The notes beneath the pieces are model-generated. The model was not told the origin of the DNA. It searched no databases and saw nothing but the letters and a program-made list of their open reading frames with translations. A program made the translations under genes and the position numbers. From Hyphomicrobiaceae bacterium (GTDB taxonomy: Bacteria; Pseudomonadota; Alphaproteobacteria; Rhizobiales; Hyphomicrobiaceae): a stretch of DNA of 64,000 nucleotides. The DNA lies in assembly GCA_022844225.1 (NCBI GenBank), contig JALHMC010000012.1:25992-89991 (forward strand), in the 5' to 3' direction. Shown piece after piece: positions 38,000 through 55,507 of the stretch. Each line of letters starts with the position of its first letter. The first letter of the stretch is position 1.

Positions 38000-38947
38000 T
38001 CAACCGCGCGGATGAGCTTTATCATAGACCTCGAGCAGGCGCTCGCGATCGACCTCGGTGTAAATCTGGGTCGTCGAGAGACTGGCGTGGCCGAGCAGCT
38101 CCTGGATCTGGCGCAGGTCCGCGCCGGCCGAGAGCAGGTGGGTTGCGAACGAGTGGCGGAGCGCGTGTGGCGTCGCCGTTTCGGGAAGCCCGAGCGCCTC
38201 GCGAGCGCGCGCGACGACGAGCTGGATGATGCGGGGCGAGAGCGACCCGCCTTTGGCGCCCAAGAATAGCGGGCCGTCCGGTGTGAGTGGGTAGGGACAG
38301 AGCTTGCGATAGCGGGCGACCGCCTCGATGGTGACCGGCAAGGCGGGAACCAGACGCTCCTTGCCGCCTTTGCCATCGATTCTCAGCACGTCGCGGAGGG
38401 CGGTCGGGGCGTCTTTAGTCCGGAGGCTCAGGGCCTCGGAGATGCGCAGACCGGAGCCGTAGAGCAGCAGCAGCACGGCCATGTCGCGGGCGGCGATCCA
38501 GTCGAGCTTGGACGTGAAATCATCCTCGACCAGCGCGGCCGCTTTTTCGCGCGTGAGCGGTTTGGGGACTCCACGCGGCACCTTCGGCATGGCGACAGAG
38601 AAAACGGCGCGGGAGGCGGCGATCTCTTCCTTCTCCAGGAACCGATAGAATCCGCGCAAAGCCGACATGGTGCGCGCGAGTGAGCGGCTTTCTAGGCCCG
38701 CGCGGCGCCGGCTCGCCATGAAGCGGCGGAAGGCGCGCATGTCCAGGCTGGTCGTGTCTGACAGCGTTGCGGCGTGGCCGACCTCACGCGACAGCCAAGC
38801 GAAGAACTGCGCCATGTCGCGTCGATAGGCGACGATGGTCGCATCGGACGCGTCGCGCTCGACTGAGAGGCGATCGAGCCAGTCATCGACGAGGGCCGCA
38901 AGCTCGGGAGCGGCGACGGGTGACGGGTCGGCAATGATGGGCTGCAT
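38000..38947 (-). CDS. xerC: Tyrosine recombinase XerC
   Basis: 315 aa from ATG 38947 (MQPIIADPSPVAAPELAAL). The SAM-like N-terminal core-binding domain (ALVDDWLDRLSVERDASDATIVAYRRDMAQFFAWL) is followed by the catalytic domain with Arg in GSGLRISEALSLR, Lys in GKGGKERLVP, ALRHSFATHLL, LLGHASLSTTQIYT and the ending KAHPRG. It should resolve chromosome dimers at dif together with XerD. The XerC rather than XerD label rests on the CPYPLTPDGPLFLGAKGGSLSPR and AHPR ending typical of alphaproteobacterial XerC. It is divergent from the thiolase-like gene. Confidence 0.9.
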   Translation of the reverse strand: MQPIIADPSPVAAPELAALVDDWLDRLSVERDASDATIVAYRRDMAQFFAWLSREVGHAATLSDTTSLDMRAFRRFMASRRRAGLESRSLARTMSALRGFYRFLEKEEIAASRAVFSVAMPKVPRGVPKPLTREKAAALVEDDFTSKLDWIAARDMAVLLLLYGSGLRISEALSLRTKDAPTALRDVLRIDGKGGKERLVPALPVTIEAVARYRKLCPYPLTPDGPLFLGAKGGSLSPRIIQLVVARAREALGLPETATPHALRHSFATHLLSAGADLRQIQELLGHASLSTTQIYTEVDRERLLEVYDKAHPRG

Positions 38948-39181
38948 CCGCTTCTCGCAGTCATTTACGTCTGATCTGACGTCGATTCGCCCAACAAACC
39001 GTAAACCCGCTCGAAGCTCGTGTGGCGCCCATCGAGACCTCGGAGCGACACGCCTGTCCCGACCAGATTGACTTCCCTGCCTCGTTCGCGCGACCCTTGG
39101 CGGTGCATGGCCGTGTCCTTCGGGTGCGGTCGTAGACGTTTGAGAAGACCTTAACACACGCGAGGGAGGTTCGGAGGACAC

Positions 39182-40357
39182 ATGTCACTGAAAGGCAAGG
39201 CTTATATCGTCGGGGCATGGGAGCATCCCACGCGCAAAGCGCCCGACATCTCCCTCATGCAGCTGCATGCCGAATGCGCCAAGGGCGCGCTCGACGACGC
39301 CGGTCTCTCGGTGAAGGATGTCGATGGCTACTTCTGCGCCGCGGGCGACACGCCCGGTCTCGGCGGCATGTCGATGGCCGAGTACATGGGCCTCCGACTG
39401 AAGCACTACGATTCGACCGACAGCGGCGGCTCTTCCTACAATCTGCACGTCGGCCACGCGCTGATGGCGATCGCGACCGGGCGCTGCAACGTCGCGCTGG
39501 TTACGCTCGCCGGCCGCCCGCGGTCCGAGGGTGTGCAAACGGGCACGGCACCGCGCATGGGCAACGTGCAACAGGCCGAGCTGCAGTTCGAATTCCCCTA
39601 CGGCCCGGCGACCGCGAACATGTACGCGATGGCGGCGCGCCGGCACATGCACGAGTTCGGCACGACGTCCGAGCAGCTGGCCTGGGTGAAGGTCGCAGCC
39701 TCACACCACGCGCAGTACAATCCGCACGCGATGCTGCCCAAGGTCGTAACGGTCGAGGACGTGGTCAACTCGCCGATGGTCGCGGATCCGCTGCACCGGC
39801 TCGACTGCTGCGTCATCTCCGATGGTGGCGGCGCGCTCGTCATCACCAAGCCCGAAATCGCCAAGTCGCTGAAGCGGCCGCTGGTCAAGGTGATCGGCAC
39901 GGGCGAGGCCAACAAGGCGCAGTGGGGCGGCAGAAACCTCGACCTCACGTACTCGGCCGGTCGCGAGTCGGGCGCAGCCGCATTCGAGATGGCCGGCGTC
40001 AAGCCGTCCGACGTGAAATACGCGTCGATCTACGACTCGTTCACGATCACCGTTGTGATGCAGATCGAGGACCTCGGTTTCTGCAAGAAGGGTGAGGGCG
40101 GCAAGTTCGTCTCCGACGGCAACCTGATCTCGGGCGTCGGCAAGCTGCCGTTCAACACGGACGGCGGTGGGCTGTGCTCGAACCATCCGGGCAATCGCGG
40201 CGGCATGACGAAAGTGATCGAGGCCGTTCGTCAGGCACGTGGGGAAGCGCACCCGAAGGTGCAGGTGAAGGATCACTCGATCGTTCTGGCGCACGGCACG
40301 GGCGGTTCGCTCGGCACCCGCCACGTCGGGTCCACGGTCATCCTCGAGCGGGAGTGA
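39182..40357 (+). CDS. SCP2-thiolase-like acyl-CoA enzyme without the nucleophilic Cys
   Basis: 391 aa thiolase fold. ATG 39182 is close behind GGAGG. In the position of the thiolase nucleophile the sequence reads DSGGSSYNLHVGHALMAI, with Ser in place of Cys. The C-terminal half has GGGLCSNHPGNRGGMTKV (keeping His) and LAHGTGGSLGTRHVGSTVIL instead of the usual CxG motif. This resembles thiolase-like retro-aldolases such as Ltp2 and partners of the benzylsuccinyl-CoA thiolase type, which pair with DUF35 proteins. Indeed a DUF35 gene follows after nine bases. It probably cleaves or forms a C-C bond on a CoA thioester. Confidence 0.87.
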   Translation: MSLKGKAYIVGAWEHPTRKAPDISLMQLHAECAKGALDDAGLSVKDVDGYFCAAGDTPGLGGMSMAEYMGLRLKHYDSTDSGGSSYNLHVGHALMAIATGRCNVALVTLAGRPRSEGVQTGTAPRMGNVQQAELQFEFPYGPATANMYAMAARRHMHEFGTTSEQLAWVKVAASHHAQYNPHAMLPKVVTVEDVVNSPMVADPLHRLDCCVISDGGGALVITKPEIAKSLKRPLVKVIGTGEANKAQWGGRNLDLTYSAGRESGAAAFEMAGVKPSDVKYASIYDSFTITVVMQIEDLGFCKKGEGGKFVSDGNLISGVGKLPFNTDGGGLCSNHPGNRGGMTKVIEAVRQARGEAHPKVQVKDHSIVLAHGTGGSLGTRHVGSTVILERE

Positions 40358-40366
40358 GAGAATCCA

Positions 40367-40753
40367 ATGAGCGAGAGAGTTTATCAGTTCGTCGGCACAA
40401 CGCCCGGCACCGAGCCCTATTGGGACGCAGCGAAAGAAGGCAAGCTGCTGCTGCGCTACAACAAAGACGACGGCCAGCCGCACTACTATCCGCGGCAGAT
40501 CTGCCCCTACACGCTTTCGACCAATCTCGAGTGGCGTGAGGCGAAGGGCACCGGCGTGATCTACACGTACTCGATCATGCATGCGGCGAAGCCTGCCTAT
40601 GTGATCGCCTACGTGACGCTCGACGAGGGCGTATCGATGATGACCAACATCGTCGACACCCCGTTCGACCAGATCAAGGTCGGCCAGAAGGTGAAAGTCG
40701 TCTTCAAGGATATGGACGACGGCCACAAGCTGCCGTGTTTCAAGGTGGCTTGA
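40367..40753 (+). CDS. DUF35/OB-fold partner of thiolase-like enzyme
   Basis: 128 aa. The N-terminal helix and rubredoxin-like region is TEPYWDAAKEGKLLLRYNKDDGQPHYYPRQICPYTL, followed by an OB fold (GVIYTYSIMHAAKPAYVIAYVTLDEGVSMMTNIVD, IKVGQKVKVVFKDMDDGHKLPCFK). Only one cysteine of the usual four zinc-ribbon cysteines remains, so zinc binding is unlikely. DUF35 proteins act as acyl-CoA-binding subunits of Ltp2-like aldolases or BbsB-like thiolases. Tight linkage to the upstream gene supports a heteromeric complex. Confidence 0.88.
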   Translation: MSERVYQFVGTTPGTEPYWDAAKEGKLLLRYNKDDGQPHYYPRQICPYTLSTNLEWREAKGTGVIYTYSIMHAAKPAYVIAYVTLDEGVSMMTNIVDTPFDQIKVGQKVKVVFKDMDDGHKLPCFKVA

Positions 40754-40869
40754 TCTCGCGGGTGCGAGACTGAATTGTCGCCGCGTATTGTCCGGTGATC
40801 GGAAACCGTGTCAGGCTCACGCTTGGCACGGTTCTTTGTCGTGCCGGTCGTCTTGGGGGTAGCCAAACA

Positions 40870-41817
40870 ATGCGTCAGCGCCTGTTTCTCGCCGTTCTGA
40901 TGATGATCTCCAGCGTCAGTCTCGCGCTTGCGCAATGGCCCGAAAAGCCCGTCAAGCTGCTGGTGCCCTACCCGGCTGGCGGTGCCGCCGATCTGCCGGC
41001 AAGGCTTGTCGCGGAAGGTCTGACGAAAAAATTCGGCAAGCCGTTCATCGTGGAGAACCGGGCGGGAGCCGCGGGTCAAATCGGTACCGAGCAGGTCGTG
41101 CGATCCGCGCCAGACGGCTATACGATCTATTGCGGGCCGAACGCGCCGTACGTGCTGCTGCCGATGCTACGGCCAACGAGCTACAAGACTTCCGATCTGG
41201 TGCCGATCGCGCCGTTTGGCGAGCTGGTCTATGGGTTCGGTGTTCTCAAGGACAGGCCGTACAGCAACTTGAAGGAGCTGCAGGCGTTCGCGAAAGCCAA
41301 TCCTGGCAAGCTCGCCTATTCGTCACCGGGTGTGGGCTCAGCGAGCCATCTGCGCGGCGAGGCATTCAAGATCGTCGCCGGGGTCGACATAACCCATATT
41401 CCCTATCGTACCGGCGCCGAAGCATTGCCCGACCTGCTCGCCGGGCGTCTCGACGTGATGCAGGACAACTTGTTCTTTCCGCAGGTACGCTCGGGAGAAG
41501 TCAAAATGCTCGGCATGATCAGCCGGGTGAGGCACCCTGAGTTTCCGGATGTGGCGACATTCGCCGAGCAAGGATTTGCGGTCGATCTACCGGTTTGGGG
41601 CGGACTGCTTGGCCCTGTGGGACTGCCTCAGCCCGTCACCGATGCACTGGTAAAAGCCATGGGTGAACTCGTGCGGGACGCGGATTTCACGGCCCGGATG
41701 CTCAAGATCGGTTTCGTGACCTACTCGGCGACGCAGCAGGAACTCGCCGATCAGGTCGCGAAGGAAGCCGCCATCTATCAGGACTTCGTCAAGAAGGCGA
41801 ACATCAAACTGGAGTAA
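40870..41817 (+). CDS. Bug-family (tripartite tricarboxylate transporter) substrate-binding protein
   Basis: 315 aa from ATG 40870 ([28 protein letters not shown]), a clear signal peptide for periplasmic export. Family motifs: [90 protein letters not shown] receptors capture small carboxylates or related compounds. No TctA/TctB membrane genes are next to it, so it is an orphan receptor here, as is common for Bug proteins. A palindromic repeat follows 11 bases after the stop. Confidence 0.93.
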
Positions 41818-42963: not shown

Positions 42964-43509
42964 TCACACCTTCAGCGCCTCGTGCTTCGGGTTGGGGGGC
43001 AGTTCGGCGCCATTCACGGTCATGGCGAGCATCGCGTAGTAGCCGATGCAGGTCGTGAGTTGCACGTACTGGTCGGACCCGAGCCGCGCGAGGACCGCCT
43101 GCGCGAGAGGTTCGTCGACGCGGTTCTTTCGGAGCAGTTGCCGCGTGAAATCGACAATCTGCAGGTCGTCAGGCGGGATGCCGTCGGAGTGCTCGTCGCG
43201 GATCGCGTCGATGGTCGAGCGAGGGATGCCGCGATCGGCGCCGATGACGCCCTGGATGCCCCAAACGTACTGCGCCTGGAAGTGCCGACCAACCACCAGA
43301 GCCGCGAGTGTGCGAATGCGCTTGTCGAGCGTGCCTTCGAACCGCACCAGCGTGCCCAGGTGCGCGACACGCTCGGCCCACTCCGGCGCGTGCATCCAGA
43401 CCGAGAACGGACCTTCGAGTGACTTCCTCGTGTCGACGATTTTTTCCGCGATGCGGCGGCCATCGCCGGTCAGCTCGTCGGGAGATTTCAGGATCTTGAC
43501 GCGGGCCAT
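42964..43509 (-). CDS. Carboxymuconolactone decarboxylase (CMD/AhpD)-family protein, no CxxC
   Basis: 181 aa helical protein. The CMD core is LVRFEGTLDKRIRTLAALVVGRHFQAQYVWGIQGVIGADRGI followed by IVDFTRQLLRKNRVDEPLAQAVLARLG. The AhpD-type CxxC pair is absent, so it is not a classical peroxidase adaptor and fits the non-thiol branch seen near aromatic degradation genes. Start MARVKILKSP at 43509. The lipocalin-like gene lies upstream on the same strand, separated by a small palindromic repeat. Confidence 0.88.
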   Translation of the reverse strand: MARVKILKSPDELTGDGRRIAEKIVDTRKSLEGPFSVWMHAPEWAERVAHLGTLVRFEGTLDKRIRTLAALVVGRHFQAQYVWGIQGVIGADRGIPRSTIDAIRDEHSDGIPPDDLQIVDFTRQLLRKNRVDEPLAQAVLARLGSDQYVQLTTCIGYYAMLAMTVNGAELPPNPKHEALKV

Positions 43510-43531
43510 GTGACGTTCCTCAGGTGTAAAG

Positions 43532-43574
43532 GCCCCGGATCGGCGCTCGCCTGACAGCTCGCTTCGTCCGGGGC
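43532..43574. repeat. Palindromic intergenic repeat, family 2, single half
   Basis: GCCCCGGA (43532-43539) and TCCGGGGC (43567-43574) are perfect 8-bp arms around GCGCTCGCCTGACAGCTCGCT-like sequence. It corresponds to the right half of the full elements at 41829 and 52279. Confidence 0.65.
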
Positions 43575-43588
43575 TCCGAAACTCATTC

Positions 43589-43978
43589 TCAATCGTCGAT
43601 CTTCGCCCACCACAGGGAATGCTTCTCCATGCGGCCGTGATACTTGCGGAGCGGCGGGCGGAGGACCATCAGGTCCCCTTCGAAGCTGACATCGCGAACC
43701 TGGTCCGAGCCGATGCGGTCCTGGTCGATCGAGGTATCGACGCGTGTGACGAGCTGCTTGCCATCGTACGTGTAGATGCCGCTGTAGAAGCTGCGCTGGC
43801 GCTGCTCGCCTGCGGGGATCTCGGGGCGTCCGTCCATGATCGCGCCCATCATGCGGCCGTTCGCTCCGAGCACGAGACGGCCGATGACGTGTTCTCCGCC
43901 GAACGGGGGCGGCAAAGGCGAGCCGTCCTCGGCCTCGGCCTTGCTGCGGATGAGCTTCCAGGTTCCGGTGATATTCAT
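43589..43978 (-). CDS. Small lipocalin-like (DUF1579/avidin-like barrel) protein
   Basis: 129 aa from ATG 43978 (MNITGTWKLIRSKAEAEDGSP). Beginning with GTWKL and containing repeated strands (HVIGRLVLGANGRMMGAIMDGRP, SFYSGIYTYDGKQLVTRVDTSID, RDVSFEGDLMVLRPP) it matches the lipocalin_5-like family of small beta barrels, which bind hydrophobic ligands or have unknown function. The ORF extension to 44098 lacks support. It may share a transcript with the CMD gene downstream. Confidence 0.75.
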   Translation of the reverse strand: MNITGTWKLIRSKAEAEDGSPLPPPFGGEHVIGRLVLGANGRMMGAIMDGRPEIPAGEQRQRSFYSGIYTYDGKQLVTRVDTSIDQDRIGSDQVRDVSFEGDLMVLRPPLRKYHGRMEKHSLWWAKIDD

Positions 43979-44598
43979 GGGGCACTCTCGTGTCGGGGGG
44001 CGTCTGTGATGACGCCCATGATCGGGACTTCCGAGGGTGAATGTCCAGGCCCGATGAGTCGAGGGGGGCGTGGATCCCCGACCTCCGCCCGCGGTCACGC
44101 GCGCACTGTCTGGGATGACGCCGAGAGAGAATGCGCAGTGTCCTCGTCACGTTGCCGCGCGAGGGTCTGTTTCGAGCAATGCACCTCCACGCCGGATGCC
44201 CCCTGCGGTCATGACTCCGCCGTGACGTGGGCACCGAAGGCACCAGGAGAAAGAGGGGGACGGGGCTCTCGCCGTCCGATGGGTCGCACGTTCAGATGGC
44301 GGCGAGCCGCCCCGTCTTGCCGCTTGCTTTGCCAAACCGCTGCGGGACCGTCGGCAACAGTCCGGCTCACGGCGATCCGTGGCAACGGCCGGCTGGGATG
44401 TGGCAGAGCCTACCTAGGGAGCGTGGCGGCACGCCGGAGCACCTCCGAGGTTCAGGCCCGGCTCATCACCGGAAGCGGCATCCGCACCCACTCGCCAGAC
44501 GCTTCCGGAAGCGCCCCCTCGTGATGCGGACGAGGGGATCGTAACCCAGCCAAAGGGACCGGGGATAAGTCGGCTCGTTCCGTGCACCTTCCGAGCCT
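43979..44598. other. Long intergenic region with nested palindromes
   Basis: 620 bases without a supported gene. At 44500-44513 CGCTTCCGGAAGCG is a perfect 14-base palindrome; CCGGAAGCG at about 44469-44477 could pair with its left half instead. At 44515-44537 CCCCTCGT-gatgcgg-ACGAGGGG is a perfect 8-bp hairpin. These lie about 60-130 bases beyond the amine oxidase stop and may end or stabilise its mRNA. No T-run is seen. Long ORFs here are Arg-rich shadows. Confidence 0.5.
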
Positions 44599-46587
44599 TC
44601 ACACGCAGCAACTGGCCGCGTTTCGCGTCGGAGCGTCGTCGATCATCGGGTTCCTGTCGAAGAAGCCGGATGGCATCAGCTTGAAGCCGCACATGACCAC
44701 GGGCTGCACGGGGAAATCCTCGAGACGCACCGGATGATGCAGGCCGAACACGTGCCAGACGACGATGTCGGTATTCTCGACGGGGCGATCGGCCTCGGTC
44801 CATTGCGGCAGGCCCAGTCCGCCTTCCGACTGGTTGACGTAATCGCCCGCGGGATAGCGCTCGTCGGGGGCGAACGGCGTGACCCAGAGGTGGTTATAGA
44901 TGAAGCCACCGCGCTGGCCCGAGCGGCTGCCAGGGTCGGTGAATGTGGTCACAGTGTGCGTCGGCTCGAGCTTGTAGGCGGTGGGCTTGCCGACCGCGTT
45001 GCGCGTGTCCGGATTGATGATCTTCCAATAGCGCATGGTTGCCGGGTTCGCACGGCGCGCCGCTGCCTTCTCGGTCGCGAGGACAGTCTGCTCCTCGTAG
45101 AAGACATTGCCTTGCGGGTTCTCTGCGCCGAGTGGGGGCACGACGACGTTGCACTCGACCACCGAGTTCGCGGGGCCGTCGACTTCCATGTCGAGCCTTG
45201 CGCAAAACAGGTGCTGGTGGATCTGGCCCATCACACCGGGCATCACCTCGCTGCCATACTTGCTCGGTTTTCCCGGCTCGCACCCGACCGTATTGATGAT
45301 GCCGGTGGCCTTCATCTCGAACTCGATGCCGCCATGCTGATAGAGGTACCAGTACGAGGCGTACTCGTAGTTGCCGACGGTCGAGATCGAGGAGATCACG
45401 AGGCGGCGCAGGCGGCGGACCTCAGCCACGTCCGTGCGCCAATCCCAGTGCTTCCAGCCGAGGCCTTGGTCTTCCTCGTGGATGCAGATGGCGTTCTCTA
45501 TTTTGACGGGTGTGCCGTCGATGCCGTTCACCCAGGCGTCCATGTAGTGGATGGCGCCGAGGCAATCGCAGCCGAGCTTGAGCGAGTTGGCGAGCTTGCC
45601 AAGGCCGTACTCGCCGATATCGAACACGTTTTTCCGGTAGTGCGCGCGCTCCGGGCTGCCGTAGGGTACGACCATCTCGGCGATCGAGGCGCGGTGCATG
45701 ATTTTGCGACGAGCGCCATCCACCGAATGGCCGATGTCGTGCAGGATGAGCCCTTCGCGGCTATTGAAGCCGACGAGCACATCCCAACCCATCCAGCGCA
45801 GGCGCCGGCCTTCGACCGCGAAGCTCGGCCCGTCCGGCTGCACGATGTCGAGAACCTTGCCCGATGACGTGAACCGTTCCTTGAAGCGGGCATCGTACTC
45901 GTTTCGCGTCATGGGTACGGGCAGCGGGTCGCGCCCCTCGTAATGATCGTCGACGCGCAGCACCTCCATGCTGTCGATATCGACGACCGCGTTCACGCCC
46001 TCGATCGGGTGGGCGTAGTAGTTGCTGTCGGGGCGCGTTCGCAGCCATGAAAAGGTGTGCGACAGCCGCCGACCTTCCTCGCCGGGAATGTCGAACGAGC
46101 CAGCGGACCATGGGTCGACGCAGACCATGCTCACGTCATCGATGCCGCGCCGCCTGCAGGCCGCGATGAATCGCGGGTCGGCCTTGACGGCCTGCTCCAC
46201 CTCGAGGAACTCCTCGAGCATGATCATTGGCCGAGCGGCCGGAAGATCCCGCGATGCGAGGATGCGGCCCTGGTCCAGCGACAGGACACCTTCGGTGACG
46301 CCGATGCGGCCGCGACGGAAAATGGCGAACCGGGCCTGCCGGTCAAATGCGTCGCCCGGTTTCCAATAGCGGAGAAGGGCCTTATCGGGCTCGGCGATCT
46401 CGATGCGCTCGAAGCGCACCGGCTCGGTCTTGGCGAAGGCCTCGTTGATGATGGCGGCTGCGCGGCTGAGTTCACCGCCGTCGAGAGGATCGAGCGGGTG
46501 GCGGACTTGCGATGAACCGGCCGACGTGTGGCAACACGTGTTGTCCGATGGAGGCGAAGGATTGAGGTCGTCGCGTGCCGCTGCCAT
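44599..46587 (-). CDS. Copper amine oxidase (TPQ-dependent primary-amine oxidase)
   Basis: 662 aa from ATG 46587, with GAGGA upstream. It oxidises primary amines to aldehydes, ammonia and hydrogen peroxide. The topaquinone precursor is the first Tyr of GNYEYASYW, the catalytic base Asp is in FDIGEYGLG, and copper ligands are the two His of IHQHLFCARLDM plus GLHHPVRLEDFPVQP. N2/N3 and catalytic domains are all present. No signal peptide is evident, so it may be cytosolic, as in Arthrobacter-type enzymes. The enolase-superfamily gene lies 172 bases upstream on the same strand. Substrate (phenethylamine, tyramine or other) is unknown. Confidence 0.95.
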   Translation of the reverse strand: MAAARDDLNPSPPSDNTCCHTSAGSSQVRHPLDPLDGGELSRAAAIINEAFAKTEPVRFERIEIAEPDKALLRYWKPGDAFDRQARFAIFRRGRIGVTEGVLSLDQGRILASRDLPAARPMIMLEEFLEVEQAVKADPRFIAACRRRGIDDVSMVCVDPWSAGSFDIPGEEGRRLSHTFSWLRTRPDSNYYAHPIEGVNAVVDIDSMEVLRVDDHYEGRDPLPVPMTRNEYDARFKERFTSSGKVLDIVQPDGPSFAVEGRRLRWMGWDVLVGFNSREGLILHDIGHSVDGARRKIMHRASIAEMVVPYGSPERAHYRKNVFDIGEYGLGKLANSLKLGCDCLGAIHYMDAWVNGIDGTPVKIENAICIHEEDQGLGWKHWDWRTDVAEVRRLRRLVISSISTVGNYEYASYWYLYQHGGIEFEMKATGIINTVGCEPGKPSKYGSEVMPGVMGQIHQHLFCARLDMEVDGPANSVVECNVVVPPLGAENPQGNVFYEEQTVLATEKAAARRANPATMRYWKIINPDTRNAVGKPTAYKLEPTHTVTTFTDPGSRSGQRGGFIYNHLWVTPFAPDERYPAGDYVNQSEGGLGLPQWTEADRPVENTDIVVWHVFGLHHPVRLEDFPVQPVVMCGFKLMPSGFFDRNPMIDDAPTRNAASCCV

Positions 46588-46759
46588 GGCGTCCTCGTCG
46601 TGTGCTTGGTTGAAGCACAAACAGTGGACCGGCTCATGGCGAGAGGCAACAGGCAGCTCCCGGCACGTTGCCGGGAGTTCGGGCATCGGCAGACGGGGAT
46701 AGGTGCGGCGGAACGGATGCCTCAATGCAACATCAGGCCCGCCAAACCTGGAAAGTGTC

Positions 46760-47932
46760 TCAGAAGACGAACTCCGGCCCCGGCAGGTACTTGAACTTGT
46801 CCAACGCATCGGCGCGGAGGGTGAAGCCGAGACCGGGGCGGTCCGGTGCGTGGACGGTGCCGTCGGGGCGGATATCGAAGGGCTCGTTCAACAGCTCCCA
46901 CATCATCGGCATGTAGCCCTGCGTCACCTCGAGGATGTGGCAGTTGGGCGACGACATCGCCGTGTGGATCGACGCGGCGAACAGGATGCCGCTGCCCCAG
47001 GCGTGCGGCGCGAGGCGGACGCCATAGGTCGACGTGAGCGCTGCGATGCGGCGGATCTCGGTGAGGCCGCCGGCGCGGGCAACATCGGGTTGCGCGATAT
47101 CGAGGGCGCGCTTCTCCAGCAGATCGGCGAAGTCGAAGCGGGTGAACTCGCGCTCGCCCGACGCGATGGGGATTGTGGTGGCGCGACGCACTTCGGCCTG
47201 GCCGGCGTGATCGTCGGGCGTCACCGGCTCCTCGAACCAGGCGATGTCGTAGGGCTCCAACGCCTTGGCCAGCTTGATCGCCACCGCGACCTCGAGCGAG
47301 CCGTGGGCATCGACCATCAGCTCGACTTTCGGGCCAATGCCGCGACGGGCGGCCTCGACGCGCTTGAGGCATTTCTCAATGGAGAAACCGTCGCGACCAA
47401 CGACGCGCATCTTGCAGGCCGTAAAGCCTTTCGACGCATAACCTCCGAGTTCAGCTTCTGCCTCGTCGCCCGGTGCCCAGCCGCCGCTGGCGTAGCCGCG
47501 CACCGACGATCTCACCGCGCCCAGCGCCTGATAGAGCGGAATGCCGAGCGCCTGTGCCTTCACGTCCCACACGGCGATATCAACGCCGGCAATCGCCTCC
47601 ATCGCCATGCCGCGGCGGCGGCTCTCGTCGGCCTGAGTTACGCCGCGTGCGAGTGCGGGCTCGGCGCGCGAGCCGTTGTACATCTTCTCGAAGATCAACT
47701 CGGAGAACAGCGGGTTCTCGCCCTCGACCTCGGGGGCCAGCTCGTGCTCGACGATGGCTTTGACCACGGGTGGCGAGCCGAGCGCGGCGCCGATGCCGAC
47801 GAGGCCGTTGTCCGTCTCGACGCGGATCAACGTGGCGTCGCTTTTCACCTTGGTTCCGAGGTCGGTGCGGTGACGCTTCTCGACTGGAACAGGGACCGAC
47901 ATGGGAATGGCGGAAACCTTGGTGATCTTCAT
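46760..47932 (-). CDS. Mandelate racemase/muconate-lactonizing enolase-superfamily enzyme
   Basis: 390 aa from ATG 47932, AAGGAG upstream. The capping domain begins MKITKVSAIPMSVPVPVEKRHRTD. Barrel residues are: CKMRVVGRD (K-x-R), metal ligands in LMVDAHGS, WFEEPV and ASGERE, then QPDVARAGGLTE, and the base His in RLAPHAWGSG. This pattern is the mandelate racemase or sugar-acid dehydratase subgroup rather than MLE. The reaction would be alpha-proton abstraction from a carboxylate. It is divergent from the dienelactone-hydrolase gene and upstream of the copper amine oxidase. Confidence 0.92.
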   Translation of the reverse strand: MKITKVSAIPMSVPVPVEKRHRTDLGTKVKSDATLIRVETDNGLVGIGAALGSPPVVKAIVEHELAPEVEGENPLFSELIFEKMYNGSRAEPALARGVTQADESRRRGMAMEAIAGVDIAVWDVKAQALGIPLYQALGAVRSSVRGYASGGWAPGDEAEAELGGYASKGFTACKMRVVGRDGFSIEKCLKRVEAARRGIGPKVELMVDAHGSLEVAVAIKLAKALEPYDIAWFEEPVTPDDHAGQAEVRRATTIPIASGEREFTRFDFADLLEKRALDIAQPDVARAGGLTEIRRIAALTSTYGVRLAPHAWGSGILFAASIHTAMSSPNCHILEVTQGYMPMMWELLNEPFDIRPDGTVHAPDRPGLGFTLRADALDKFKYLPGPEFVF

Positions 47933-48186
47933 CGGGTGCTCCTTGGTTGCGCGAGGCGACTCCCCTGCGGGGAGCCGGCCGCCTCGCGCGTGGACTGCCG
48001 CGCGCGGTTCGGCGTTGCGCCTCGTGTGCGATCCAGAGAATACTAGGCACGCGACAAGCCGAACCGCAAAGACACCGATACCGAACACCACCGCGAGACG
48101 CGCAGGACGTCGATCCATCGCTGCCCTGCACCGTGCGGTCCCACTCTTTCAACGGCCTCGAAGTCACGCGTCCAAGGAGGAACCCA

Positions 48187-48936
48187 ATGTCATTCTATCG
48201 CGGCATGACCTGCGCCAATGTCACCATCAAGGGCGACGGCGGCACGCCGATCACTGCCTACACCGCCAAGCCCGAGGGTAAGGGCCCGTTCCCCGGCGTG
48301 GTGCTGATCCACCACCTCCCCGGCTGGAGCGAGTACTACATCGAGACCACGCGGCGCTTCGCACACCACGGCTTCCTGGCGATCTGCGCCAACCTCTACG
48401 AGCGGGCTGGCGCCGGCAACCCGGACGACGTGGCCGCCAAGGTGCGCGCCGACGGCGGCATTCCCGACGCGCAGATGGTCGGCGACACGGCCGCGGCCGT
48501 CGCCTGGATGCGCGCGCAGCCGGAGCACAACGGCAAGGTCGGCCTGATCGGCTCGTGCTCGGGTGGCCGTCACGCCTTCATCTACGGCTGCCAACGCAAG
48601 GACGTCGACGCGATCGTCGAACAATGGGGCGGCCGCGTCGTGATGGGCGCGGAAGAACTCAACGCCAAGACACCGAAGGCGCCGATCGAGATGACGGCCG
48701 GGCTTTCTGCGCCGCTGCTCGGCATTTTCGGCAACGATGATCGCGCACCGTCGCCGGAGCAGGTGGACCAGCACGAGGCCGAGCTGAAGAAGGCCGGCAA
48801 GTCGTACGAGTTCCACCGCTACGACGGCGCCGGCCACGGCTTCACGTACTGGCACCGTCCGCTCTACCGGCCGGAAGCCGCAATGGACAGCTGGGGCAAG
48901 GTGTTCGCGTTCTTCGGCAAGCATCTCGCGAAGTAA
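48187..48936 (+). CDS. Dienelactone hydrolase-family protein
   Basis: 249 aa from ATG 48187, with a strong AAGGAGG. The alpha/beta hydrolase fold has a Cys nucleophile in IGSCSGGRHAF, Asp in FGNDDRAPSPEQV and His in GAGHGFTYW, the Cys-Asp-His triad of dienelactone hydrolases. Family members hydrolyse dienelactone to maleylacetate or act on other esters. An iron-ADH/maleylacetate-reductase-like gene is in the window but 14 kb away, so linkage is not shown. The DUF6295 gene follows after 10 bases. Confidence 0.92.
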   Translation: MSFYRGMTCANVTIKGDGGTPITAYTAKPEGKGPFPGVVLIHHLPGWSEYYIETTRRFAHHGFLAICANLYERAGAGNPDDVAAKVRADGGIPDAQMVGDTAAAVAWMRAQPEHNGKVGLIGSCSGGRHAFIYGCQRKDVDAIVEQWGGRVVMGAEELNAKTPKAPIEMTAGLSAPLLGIFGNDDRAPSPEQVDQHEAELKKAGKSYEFHRYDGAGHGFTYWHRPLYRPEAAMDSWGKVFAFFGKHLAK

Positions 48937-51341: not shown

Positions 51342-51476
51342 TCACCACATCACCTTCGCCCCCAGCCCCGCGATCGCCGGATCGGCTGTCACGACCGTCA
51401 AGCGTTCGGTGAGGGCTTGGCCGACGATCATGCGGTCGAAGGGGTCTTTGTGGAGGCTTGGCGGCTCTGCCCACGG
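51342..51476 (-). pseudogene. Remnant of a VapC-type PIN toxin gene (C-terminal part only)
   Basis: Reading the minus strand down to the TGA at 51344-51342 gives LHKDPFDRMIVGQALTERL, then TVVTADPAIAGLGAKVMW. This is the C terminus of PIN-domain toxins: the H-x-D-PFDR-x-I-x-QA helix and the VTAD metal-binding strand. Upstream the frame stops after eight more codons (TGA at 51479-51477), and the DNA there is the leader of the CoA-transferase gene, so the N-terminal two thirds and any antitoxin are gone. It is not in the ORF track because no start remains. Confidence 0.78.
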
Positions 51477-51562
51477 TCAACGTCGGTTGCCTTCGCCGCC
51501 GAACCGGGCACAATGGGCCGGGACAACCGCAGCAACTCGCACCAACGCTTCGCAGAGACACG

Positions 51563-52264
51563 ATGGCCATCAACAAGATCGTTCAATCCATGGCCGACGC
51601 CATGGCGGGTATCAAGGACGGATCGACCGTGCTGGTCGCCGGTTTCGGCGCCGTCGGGCAGCCGAACCAGCTGATCGACGCGCTGACCGAGCAGGGCGCC
51701 ACGGACCTCACCGTCGTCTGCAACAACGCCGGCACGGGTCGCAAGGGCCTCGCGGGCCTGATGGCGGCGGGACGCGTGCGGAAGATCATCTGCTCGTTCC
51801 CGCGCTCGGCCGGGTCGGTGGTGTTCGAGGAACTGCAAGCGGCCGGCAAGCTCGAGCTGGAGCTGGTGGCGCAGGGCACGATGGCCGAGCGCATGCGGGC
51901 GGGCGGCGCCGGCATCCCGGCGTTCTACACGGCCACCGCCTATGGCACCTACATTGGCGAGGGCAAGGAAGTGCGGGAGTTCAACGGCCGCAAGTACATC
52001 ATGGAGGAGGCGATCAAGGCCGACGTGGCGTTGATCGAGGCGTGGCAGGCGGATCGCTGGGGCAACCTGCGCTACCGGACCAGCGCGCGGAACTTCAACC
52101 CCGTGATGGCGACGGCCGCGGACCTCACCATCTGCCAGACGCAGCATATCGTGGAGCTGGGTGCGCTCGGGCCGGACGACATCCACACGCCCGGCATCTA
52201 TGTCGACCGCGTGATCCACGTGCCCTACGGCGACCCGCCGCCGGCAATGAAGAACGAGAGTTGA
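51563..52264 (+). CDS. CoA-transferase subunit A (3-oxoacid CoA-transferase type)
   Basis: 233 aa from ATG 51563. It is the alpha subunit fold of family I CoA-transferases: KIVQSMADAMAGIKDGSTVLVAGFGAVGQPNQLIDALTEQG, TVVCNNAGTGRKGLAGLM, and the CoA-contact region GGAGIPAFYTATAYGTYIGEGKEVREFNGRKYIMEE. It pairs with the subunit B gene 154 bases downstream to exchange CoA between succinyl- or acetyl-CoA and a 3-oxo acid such as 3-oxoadipate or acetoacetate; the exact acid is not evident. The intergenic space contains a palindromic repeat. Confidence 0.94.
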   Translation: MAINKIVQSMADAMAGIKDGSTVLVAGFGAVGQPNQLIDALTEQGATDLTVVCNNAGTGRKGLAGLMAAGRVRKIICSFPRSAGSVVFEELQAAGKLELELVAQGTMAERMRAGGAGIPAFYTATAYGTYIGEGKEVREFNGRKYIMEEAIKADVALIEAWQADRWGNLRYRTSARNFNPVMATAADLTICQTQHIVELGALGPDDIHTPGIYVDRVIHVPYGDPPPAMKNES

Positions 52265-52278
52265 CGCGATAATCGGCC

Positions 52279-52394
52279 GAGTTCCCGGACGGAGCGCGAG
52301 CGAACGCGAAGCGCGAAGATCCGGGATCTTCCCCGGTCGAGATGGGTAAGGCCCCCGGATCTCGACGCACCTGCGGTGCGCTCCGTCCGGGGAC
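52279..52394. repeat. Palindromic intergenic repeat, family 2, copy 2
   Basis: GAGTTCCCGGACG ... GATCCGGGATCTT ... CCCCGGATCTCG ... GTCCGGGGAC, the same order as at 41829-41947. It sits inside the CoA-transferase A/B transcription unit and ends 24 bases before the subunit B ATG. Confidence 0.8.
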
Positions 52395-52418
52395 TCGGAG
52401 AAGAGTGGAGACATCCCG

Positions 52419-53108
52419 ATGACGACCGCCGCCGCAACTGCCGCCGCCGCTCCCACCGCCGACAACGTGCGCGGCTGGAGCCGCAAGGAGATGGCCAAGC
52501 GCCTCGCCGACGACATTCCGGAGGGCTGGTACGTCAACCTCGGCATCGGCATTCCGCTGGCCGTGGGCGATTTCATTCCGTCGGACCGCGAGGTGGTGCT
52601 GCAGTCCGAGAATGGCATCGTCGGCATGGGACCGCTGCAGACGGCGGACAATCTCGACACCTGGATCGTCAACGCCGGCAAGCAGAACGTGACGCTGCGC
52701 ACGGGCGCCTCGATCGTTTCGCACTCGGATTCGTTCGCGATGATCCGCGGGGGACACCTGGACCTCTGCGTGCTCGGCTCTTTCGAGGTCGCGGCGAACG
52801 GCGACTTCGCCAACTGGACGGTTTCGCTGAAATCAGTGCCGGCGGTCGGCGGCGCGATGGATCTCGCGGTCGGCGCCAAACGCATCTGGCTGATCATGGA
52901 GCACACGTCGAAGGACGGAAAGCCGCGCCTGCTCGAGACGTGCACCATGCCGCTGACGGCGCCGGGAGTCGTGAAGCGCGTCTACACGAACCTCGCCGTC
53001 ATCGACGTGACGCCAAAGGGCTTCGAGCTCGTCGAGATGAACCCCGAGATCACGTTCGAGGCGCTGCAGGCGCGGACCGGCGCGAAGCTGCACCGGAAGG
53101 CGGCGTAA
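52419..53108 (+). CDS. CoA-transferase subunit B (3-oxoacid CoA-transferase type)
   Basis: 229 aa. The beta-subunit active-site glutamate lies in VVLQSENGIVGMGP (S-E-N-G-x-x-G). Further family regions are WYVNLGIGIPLAVGDFIP, FAMIRGGHLDLCVLGSFEVAANGDFANW and TMPLTAPGVVKRVYTNLAVIDV. An Ala/Thr-rich N-terminal extension of about 15 residues precedes the conserved start. It works with subunit A immediately upstream, likely in ketone-body, branched-chain or aromatic acid catabolism. Confidence 0.95.
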   Translation: MTTAAATAAAAPTADNVRGWSRKEMAKRLADDIPEGWYVNLGIGIPLAVGDFIPSDREVVLQSENGIVGMGPLQTADNLDTWIVNAGKQNVTLRTGASIVSHSDSFAMIRGGHLDLCVLGSFEVAANGDFANWTVSLKSVPAVGGAMDLAVGAKRIWLIMEHTSKDGKPRLLETCTMPLTAPGVVKRVYTNLAVIDVTPKGFELVEMNPEITFEALQARTGAKLHRKAA

Positions 53109-54102: not shown

Positions 54103-54978
54103 TCAACCCGCCAAGACCTCCCGCAACGCCTTGTTGTAGGCGTCAGGTTGCTCGTACATGACCCAATGTCCGGCGTCGGGCACCGTGCGCGTGATCAGCT
54201 CGGGATGGCCCTGGCGAATGACGTCGTAGCGTGCCTCGATGGACGGCCAAGCCGTTTGGTCCTCGGCGCCCCAGACCGCCTTCACCGGGATCTGGACCTC
54301 AGGCAAGTGCTGGGCGATCTCGGGGATGCGCGCGAATGGACGCGAGCGGAAACGGGCGCGCCGGATGTTCTCGGACTGGAGATAGACGGCGAGCGGATCG
54401 ATTCGGGACGGCTCCTTGAACATCAGGACTTCGAGCAGGCCGCGGTGGACCTCCATTCGCTCGGCGTCGCTCATGCCTTCCATTTCGCGCGGCATCTCCT
54501 TGCCCGGCCCCTGAGGCAGACCCAGCGCCGCAGCACCCGTGAGGGTGAAGTCAGCGACATGATCCTGCAGGTGGAGCAGGGCGTGCGTCGAGACATGAGC
54601 CCCGAACGAGAACGCGACGACATGGGCCCGTGCCTCCCGGGGAATCAAACTTTTCAGGCCGAGCGCCAGCATCGTGCCGCTGGTCGCGGGGATCTGCGGA
54701 ACCGGCGGCATGTCGCTGTCGCCCAGGCCCGGCATGTCGACGGCCCAGACCTCGTAATCGCGCTTGAAAGCCGGTATCTGCTTGATCCAATGGGTCCAAG
54801 AGCCCGAGCCGCCATGAACCAACACAATGGGCCGGCCCTTGCCCCATCTGCGCCAGACGAGGTCGCCGTCGCCGCACGGGGTCTTGATCACCTCGGCATC
54901 GGAAGCGATCTCGGCGGTGATGGCCTCAGGTGTCAGGCCGCGGGACAAAAGCTCGGCGAGCGGGTCGTTCGGTGTCAT
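54103..54978 (-). CDS. Alpha/beta-fold hydrolase
   Basis: 291 aa from ATG 54978 (MTPNDPLAELLSRGLTPEA). Core: RPIVLVHGGSGSWTHWIKQIPAF (oxyanion region), VWAVDMPGLGDSDMP, nucleophile elbow VAFSFGAHVSTHA with Ser, Asp in AVWGAEDQTAWPS, and His in VPDAGHWVMYEQP. A cytosolic esterase, lactonase or C-C hydrolase (MhpC-like) is likely, but the substrate cannot be inferred. It is monocistronic, and follows a palindromic repeat. Confidence 0.92.
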   Translation of the reverse strand: MTPNDPLAELLSRGLTPEAITAEIASDAEVIKTPCGDGDLVWRRWGKGRPIVLVHGGSGSWTHWIKQIPAFKRDYEVWAVDMPGLGDSDMPPVPQIPATSGTMLALGLKSLIPREARAHVVAFSFGAHVSTHALLHLQDHVADFTLTGAAALGLPQGPGKEMPREMEGMSDAERMEVHRGLLEVLMFKEPSRIDPLAVYLQSENIRRARFRSRPFARIPEIAQHLPEVQIPVKAVWGAEDQTAWPSIEARYDVIRQGHPELITRTVPDAGHWVMYEQPDAYNKALREVLAG

Positions 54979-55117
54979 GGAAATCCGTTTTGCGATGAGG
55001 GTGGCTGGCGCCATTATCGGTAGAGGCAGGTCCCCGGATCAAGCGTCACGCGAGGATGGCGGAGGGATGCCGATGCCGACCCAACTTTAGGATCAACCAG
55101 CGAGGCGCCGAGACACC

Positions 55118-55507
55118 ATGCAGCCGATCGATCCAGCAACTGCCTCGCCCGAGGTGAAAGCCGTCTTCGACGACATCAAAGCTACGCGAAAAGTCAACGA
55201 ACTCAATAATTTCTGGCTCTACCTCGCAAACGAGCCGCGCATGCTGAAGCATACCTGGGAGAGCTTGAAGGCGATCATGGGCAATGGCGCGCTCGATCCG
55301 CTGACCAAAGAGCTGATCTACGTGGCCGTCTCCGTCACCAACAACTGCGAGTACTGCATGGCTTCACATTCGGCGGCAGCGCGCGCCAAGGGCGCCACGG
55401 AGGCCCAGATCAACGAGCTGTATGCGGTCGTCGGGCTTGCCAACATGACCAATCGCCTGGCCAATGCCTACAAGGTGCCCGTCGACGATGCGTTCATGCG
55501 GGATTGA
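55118..55507 (+). CDS. AhpD-like carboxymuconolactone decarboxylase-family protein
   Basis: 129 aa. The active-site pair is VTNNCEYCMASHSAAARAKG, i.e. the CxxC-x3-H motif of AhpD-type alkylhydroperoxidases, preceded by LDPLTKELIYVAVSV. It probably acts as a thiol-dependent peroxidase or disulfide adaptor in the cytosol. The other CMD gene in the window (42964) lacks this pair. ATG 55118 is preceded by GAGACACC with a weak SD. Confidence 0.9.
   Translation: MQPIDPATASPEVKAVFDDIKATRKVNELNNFWLYLANEPRMLKHTWESLKAIMGNGALDPLTKELIYVAVSVTNNCEYCMASHSAAARAKGATEAQINELYAVVGLANMTNRLANAYKVPVDDAFMRD

Follow-up and report, generated by a model that had tools for sequence, protein, structure and literature searches.

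A cysteine-less thiolase-fold protein of the PRK08142 family and its zinc-less DUF35 partner: a candidate C-C lyase in an alphaproteobacterial genome

The gene pair, its family and its neighbourhood

The window, by which we mean the whole stretch of 64,000 nucleotides that was analysed, comes from a draft alphaproteobacterial genome (G000; 4.37 Mb, 85% complete) whose close named relatives belong to Rhizobiales/Hyphomicrobiaceae. Two open reading frames, located 9 bp apart on the same strand, encode a thiolase-fold protein that lacks the nucleophilic cysteine and a DUF35 protein with a degenerate zinc ribbon (Table 1). The thiolase-like protein matches the NCBIfam profile NF006010 / PRK08142 over its full length (702.3 bits against a cut-off of 462, residues 1-391). 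The profile is named only "thiolase domain-containing protein", with its function undescribed, and literature searches found neither a tested activity of any PRK08142 member nor papers on PRK08142, or on the structure 4u4e with thiolase.

Table 1. Features of the gene pair and its neighbours in the window, with the loci whose DUF35 partner is zinc-less
Feature	Position	Strand	Basis or remark
Thiolase-fold protein of NCBIfam PRK08142, 391 aa, without nucleophilic Cys	39182..40357	+	ORF call, alignment, profile match
Residues 82-92, GGSSYNLHVGH; Gly82 at the thiolase nucleophilic-Cys position	39425..39457	+	Alignments
YDSF motif, residues 284-287; Tyr284, proposed catalytic base	40031..40042	+	Alignment, conservation
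N334-H335-P336; His335, proposed general acid or oxyanion-hole residue	40181..40189	+	Alignment, conservation
HGTGG, residues 371-375, replacing the thiolase C-terminal Cys motif	40292..40306	+	Sequence, alignment
DUF35 partner, 128 aa, degenerate zinc ribbon and OB fold	40367..40753	+	ORF call, domain match, fold match
Ribbon residues N32..D35..C46..T49, replacing CxxC...CxxC	40460..40513	+	Alignment
TctC, tripartite tricarboxylate transporter receptor	40795..41817	+	Directly downstream of the pair
3-oxoacid CoA-transferase subunits A and B, PcaIJ/ScoAB-type (51458-52264, 52419-53108)	51458..53108	+	11 kb from the pair in the window
Loci with zinc-less DUF35 partner: L028-L033, L037, L039, L079, L104, L111, L113, L115, L118, L124, L125, L128, L129, L138, L140, L153			

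Matches above the PRK08142 cut-off were found in 11 of the 199 genomes sampled from the order and 27 of the 289 sampled from the class (about 6 to 9%); within the genus, all four genomes examined, among them that of the window, have such a match. Alpha- and betaproteobacteria, Bacilli, actinobacteria and haloarchaea have relatives that are 60-97% identical. A comparison of sequences ranks 4u4e (E = 2e-89), Sal 9myr (5e-58) and Ltp2 6ok1 (8e-49) as the closest solved structures, and the same three rank highest by fold when the predicted model (pLDDT 88) is compared. The pair adds one more member to a large family that is already catalogued, and as a family it is ordinary. Judged from its sequence, what is distinctive is the combination of Tyr, Ser and His in the putative active site, together with a DUF35 ribbon that has repeatedly become zinc-free.

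A DUF35 gene adjoins the thiolase-like gene in nearly all relatives. Within the window's own genome, five SCP2-like thiolase-fold genes pair one-to-one with five DUF35 genes, all adjacent, while a sixth, marginal PF22691 match is unpaired. A second degenerate DUF35 of this genome (L154, G000:C16:24000-40000; C-N-C-S, CKENG...CPFSG) adjoins a Cys-less thiolase-fold gene with YDAF.

The TctC gene downstream of the pair is possibly co-transcribed with it. The congener G486 has the order pair, TctC and then 3-oxoacid CoA-transferase A and B, and in the congener G484 the pair is grouped with a dienelactone-hydrolase-like gene and the CoA-transferase. The CoA-transferase genes in the window are orthologous to these, but are located 11 kb downstream of the pair. 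Neighbouring genes in relatives encode acyl-CoA synthetases, acyl-CoA dehydrogenases, enoyl-CoA/MaoC hydratases, SDRs and CoA-transferases; such neighbourhoods would fit a catabolic step on a CoA ester, without naming its substrate. On the other side of the pair, a XerD-like tyrosine recombinase gene with Phage_integrase domains (38000-39181) is divergent from the thiolase-like gene and is kept as a neighbour in two congeners. Further genes near the pair (42964-48936 and 54103-55507) encode a primary-amine oxidase, enolase-superfamily dehydratase-like and dienelactone-hydrolase-like proteins, an alpha/beta hydrolase and an AhpD/CMD-family protein; it is possible that they form a catabolic island that is only partly common to the congeners.

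Active site and position in the thiolase tree

The earlier note on this DNA had described the cysteine region as GGSSYNLHVGH and the C-terminal CxG motif as replaced, and both descriptions hold. The nucleophilic cysteine of four Cys-bearing thiolases (7yvy, 6esq, BbsB and 4bia) falls on Gly82 in our alignment, and HGTGG stands in place of the C-terminal motif. Moreover, the thiolase HDCF/HDAF motif is changed to YDSF and no HDxF is present, and the active-site histidine of the GHP type, which the note had not mentioned, is retained as N-H335-P. Both Cys-bearing thiolase motifs are gone in every relative examined. As Gly82, Gly83, Tyr284, Asp285, Ser286, Phe287, Asn325, His335 and Pro336 are each 100% conserved among the 37 core relatives, compared with only 28% of columns that are invariant overall in the same set, the cysteine-less active site is neither chance nor sequencing error.

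The loss of both thiolase cysteines may also be read as a loss of catalysis, so that the pair would only bind acyl-CoA or act as a scaffold, like the inactive thiolase-fold subunit PhlA in PhlABC (PMC2954200). We consider this unlikely, since Tyr284, Asn325 and His335 never vary whereas other columns do, the window has no active thiolase partner beside the pair, and the majority of loci have a single thiolase-fold gene. That the pair is decaying and non-functional is hardly credible: the loss of the zinc ligands could be taken that way, but dN/dS against a congener is ∼0.04 for the thiolase-like gene and 0 for the DUF35 gene, and the pair is found in all four genomes of the genus that were examined.

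We also weighed whether the protein could be a true thiolase that uses a displaced cysteine. The candidate is Cys332, which lies three residues before His335 in the preceding loop and is present in 36 of the 37 core members. However, this residue lies away from the nucleophile position, one core member lacks it, and its place is taken by Ala in the aligned 7yvy and by Ser in the majority of more distant relatives. The tree also speaks against it: approximately unbiased (AU) tests reject nesting the window family with BbsB (p = 0.02) or with the archaeal thiolase 7yvy (p = 8e-5). From the alignment and these tests, we judge thiolysis by Cys332 to be very unlikely.

The phylogeny proposed in the earlier note, with Ltp2, BbsB and other thiolases, places the window family outside the true thiolases, as represented by the five comparison thiolases used (the four Cys-bearing ones and the thiolase-like 4yzo, which lacks the cysteine). 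A branch with 100/99 support parts these five from the window family, Sal, Ltp2, IpfD and the Cys-less paralogues of the window's own genome. In this tree the window family groups with Sal at 97/79 support, yet a topology that sets it apart from all seven aldolase-type rows loses only 2.4 log units and is not rejected (AU p = 0.40), so that Sal is only a possible closest relative. Several branches are long, and the deeper placements need caution.

The DUF35 zinc ribbon

The DUF35 partner has a clear match to the OB_ChsH2_C domain PF01796 (72.6 bits, cut-off 27.1), and its match to zf-ChsH2 stays below the cut-off (18.7 bits against 23.2), the four-Cys ribbon being absent. Its four ligand positions are read as Asn32, Asp35, Cys46 and Thr49, which confirms that a single zinc-ribbon cysteine is left. 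The predicted model (pLDDT 92) matches the Ltp2 partner best, with the Sal partner and archaeal Trf close behind.

Sequencing error and decay of the DUF35 gene were ruled out by the congener G485 (same assembly as record L020), whose DUF35 protein is identical and also has N-D-C-T. The two genes differ by 14 silent codon changes and no replacement (dN 0, dS 0.19), and the zinc-less DUF35 is under purifying selection.

The earlier note had argued that the losses of the active-site cysteine and of the metal site are coordinated, i.e. that they are linked steps towards a new function. The two features do co-occur in the window. To our reading, however, such a link is extremely improbable, and it is refuted by a tally of 92 pairs whose DUF35 partner could be read (the window's included). 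Eleven active-site residues are identical in all 79 pairs that keep the four cysteines and in 12 of the 13 that do not, the exception being one thiolase with YDAF. Zinc state changes at least five times on the thiolase tree, once inside the window's genus. There, the ribbon steps from C-C-C-C in G486 (thiolase 89% identical) to C-D-C-T in G484 (97%) and N-D-C-T in the window and G485 (97%), and the zinc site is lost with no change in the active site. Loss of the zinc site in DUF35 is a separate and common event. Its repetition means that selection can keep the DUF35 ribbon without its metal.

A wider set of 136 distinct ribbons comprises 109 with four cysteines, none with three, two with two, 23 with one and two with none; about 52 three-Cys ribbons would be expected under independent losses, a contrast of the kind that shared ancestry inflates. 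The zinc-less ribbons are all-or-none and mostly carry one signature, CxDTGK...SPFT (Cys-Thr-Ser-Thr), which is found in several lineages.

Proposed reaction and comparison with known systems

We propose that the pair encodes a thiolase-fold C-C lyase assisted by DUF35, of the Ltp2/Sal/Ipf type, which would carry out a retro-aldol, or similar non-thiolytic, cleavage of a beta-hydroxyacyl-CoA; we put the probability of this reading at about 0.62. The aldolase-like or non-thiolytic class favoured in the earlier note is the best supported, because the nucleophilic cysteine is absent, the tyrosine of YDxF is invariant as in Ltp2 and Sal, the protein pairs 1:1 with DUF35, and the tree places it outside the true thiolases; the note's argument from coordinated losses fails.

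In the proposed complex, a dimer of thiolase-fold chains would lie at the centre, flanked on either side by one DUF35 chain. A beta-hydroxyacyl-CoA would be cleaved to an aldehyde or ketone and a shorter acyl-CoA (acetyl-CoA or propionyl-CoA), without an acyl-enzyme. Tyr284 would take the proton off the beta-hydroxyl; its equivalents Tyr294 of Ltp2 and Tyr302 of Sal are the catalytic bases of those enzymes, a role that mutants support (PMC12329534). His335, possibly together with Ser286, would donate a proton to the CoA enolate or stabilise it. The role predicted for the DUF35 chain is structural, shaping the cleft, with a ribbon that folds without zinc.

The acid in the known enzymes is Tyr344 in Ltp2, which corresponds to Gln352 of Sal, and Cys304 in Sal itself (PMC12329534). 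His335 aligns with Ltp2 Tyr344, Sal Gln352 and the histidine of the thiolase GHP motif, and is invariant in the core family; Ser286 stands at the position of Sal Cys304. Since Cys304 is essential and the C304S variant of Sal is inactive (PMC12329534), a family with serine at this position would have to use a different acid from that of Sal. By that analogy, Ser286 is unlikely to do the job of Cys304, and alignment and conservation suggest that the acid is probably His335. With His at the Tyr344/Gln352 position and Ser at the Cys304 position, the putative active-site set is neither that of Ltp2 nor that of Sal.

Two aspects of the neighbourhoods count against the aldolase reading. The SDR neighbours also fit a route via a 3-ketoacyl-CoA. 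Moreover, the neighbourhoods vary much and no one gene regularly follows the pair, the commonest being MaoC in 4 of 66 cases in a tally made with a crude choice of ORFs. It is also conceivable that the same cleft runs a non-aldol reaction on a CoA ester through an enolate without an acyl-enzyme, either a decarboxylation or a forward aldol/Claisen-type addition. A Cys-less thiolase-like protein, TbSLP, slowly decarboxylates malonyl-CoA (PMC12329534), and PhlABC is a case of a thiolase/DUF35 complex that carries out C-acylation (PMC2954200). However, the kcat of TbSLP is only 0.005 per s and the authors of the Sal study now propose an aldolase (PMC12329534), while PhlC is the catalytically active thiolase of PhlABC and hence gives no Cys-less precedent. 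We regard a non-aldol reaction as fairly unlikely.

Extending the aldolase reading to the family is more tentative, and we would put it at somewhat short of even odds. PRK08142 and the relatives of the 4u4e type, found in Proteobacteria, Actinobacteria, Bacilli and haloarchaea, may represent a third thiolase-fold aldolase design, in which the YDSF tyrosine would be the base and the old thiolase histidine the acid, distinct from Ltp2 (Tyr/Tyr) and Sal (Tyr/Cys), and in which the DUF35 partners have repeatedly turned to a zinc-free ribbon, mostly CxDTGK...SPFT. The family is annotated as "thiolase" in many genomes, and pathway reconstructions will wrongly assign thiolysis to it. If its members are aldolases, they would point to catabolic routes for acids whose beta-carbon cannot become a ketone, and the thiolase fold would have given rise to aldolases in a third way. 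A steroid aldolase by analogy was considered and rejected, as PRK08142 members adjoin very different catabolic genes and the neighbours in the window are not steroid genes.

Compared with the rest of PRK08142, the window shares the active-site residues and the DUF35 gene directly downstream, with no difference in the thiolase chain; most DUF35 partners in the family keep the zinc ligands, whereas the window's has lost them. The top match in both sequence and fold is 4u4e, a putative thiolase of Sphaerobacter thermophilus (41% identity), for which a literature search found no function. It has the same set of Gly, YDSF, THP and HGTGG, but belongs to a separate subgroup.

Among the characterised systems, the bile-acid aldolase Sal-Shy(DUF35) of Comamonas testosteroni (9myr) shares the fold, the tyrosine of YDxx and a DUF35 partner with an altered zinc site, and CtSal likewise has Gly at the nucleophilic-Cys position (PMC12329534). 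Sal differs in having YDCY with its essential cysteine and Gln352, where the window has YDSF and His335, and its DUF35 is fused to a hydratase rather than encoded by a separate gene. The steroid aldolase Ltp2-ChsH2(DUF35) of Thermomonospora curvata (6ok1) shares the fold, the absent catalytic cysteine, the tyrosine of YDxF and the DUF35 partner. It has YDHF and a second catalytic tyrosine, Tyr344, while the window has YDSF, with the tyrosine kept and His changed to Ser, and His335.

The zinc-less partner has a parallel in IpfD/IpfE of the ibuprofen pathway (pIBU218), where a Cys-less thiolase-fold protein also lies beside a separate DUF35. Our alignment shows that IpfE (L108:3229-3627) lacks the zinc-ribbon cysteines and that IpfD has YDAF and no nucleophilic cysteine. 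An ipfD transposon-insertion mutant fails to grow on ibuprofen (PMC9195938) and IpfDE is credited with the release of propionyl-CoA (PMC10004696); IpfE provides a functional precedent for a zinc-less DUF35. IpfD is distant in sequence, has Tyr in place of His335, and its substrate is the CoA ester of an aromatic diol. By contrast, BbsAB and the archaeal acetoacetyl-CoA thiolase with DUF35 share the fold and the DUF35 partner but keep the nucleophilic cysteine and HDxF.
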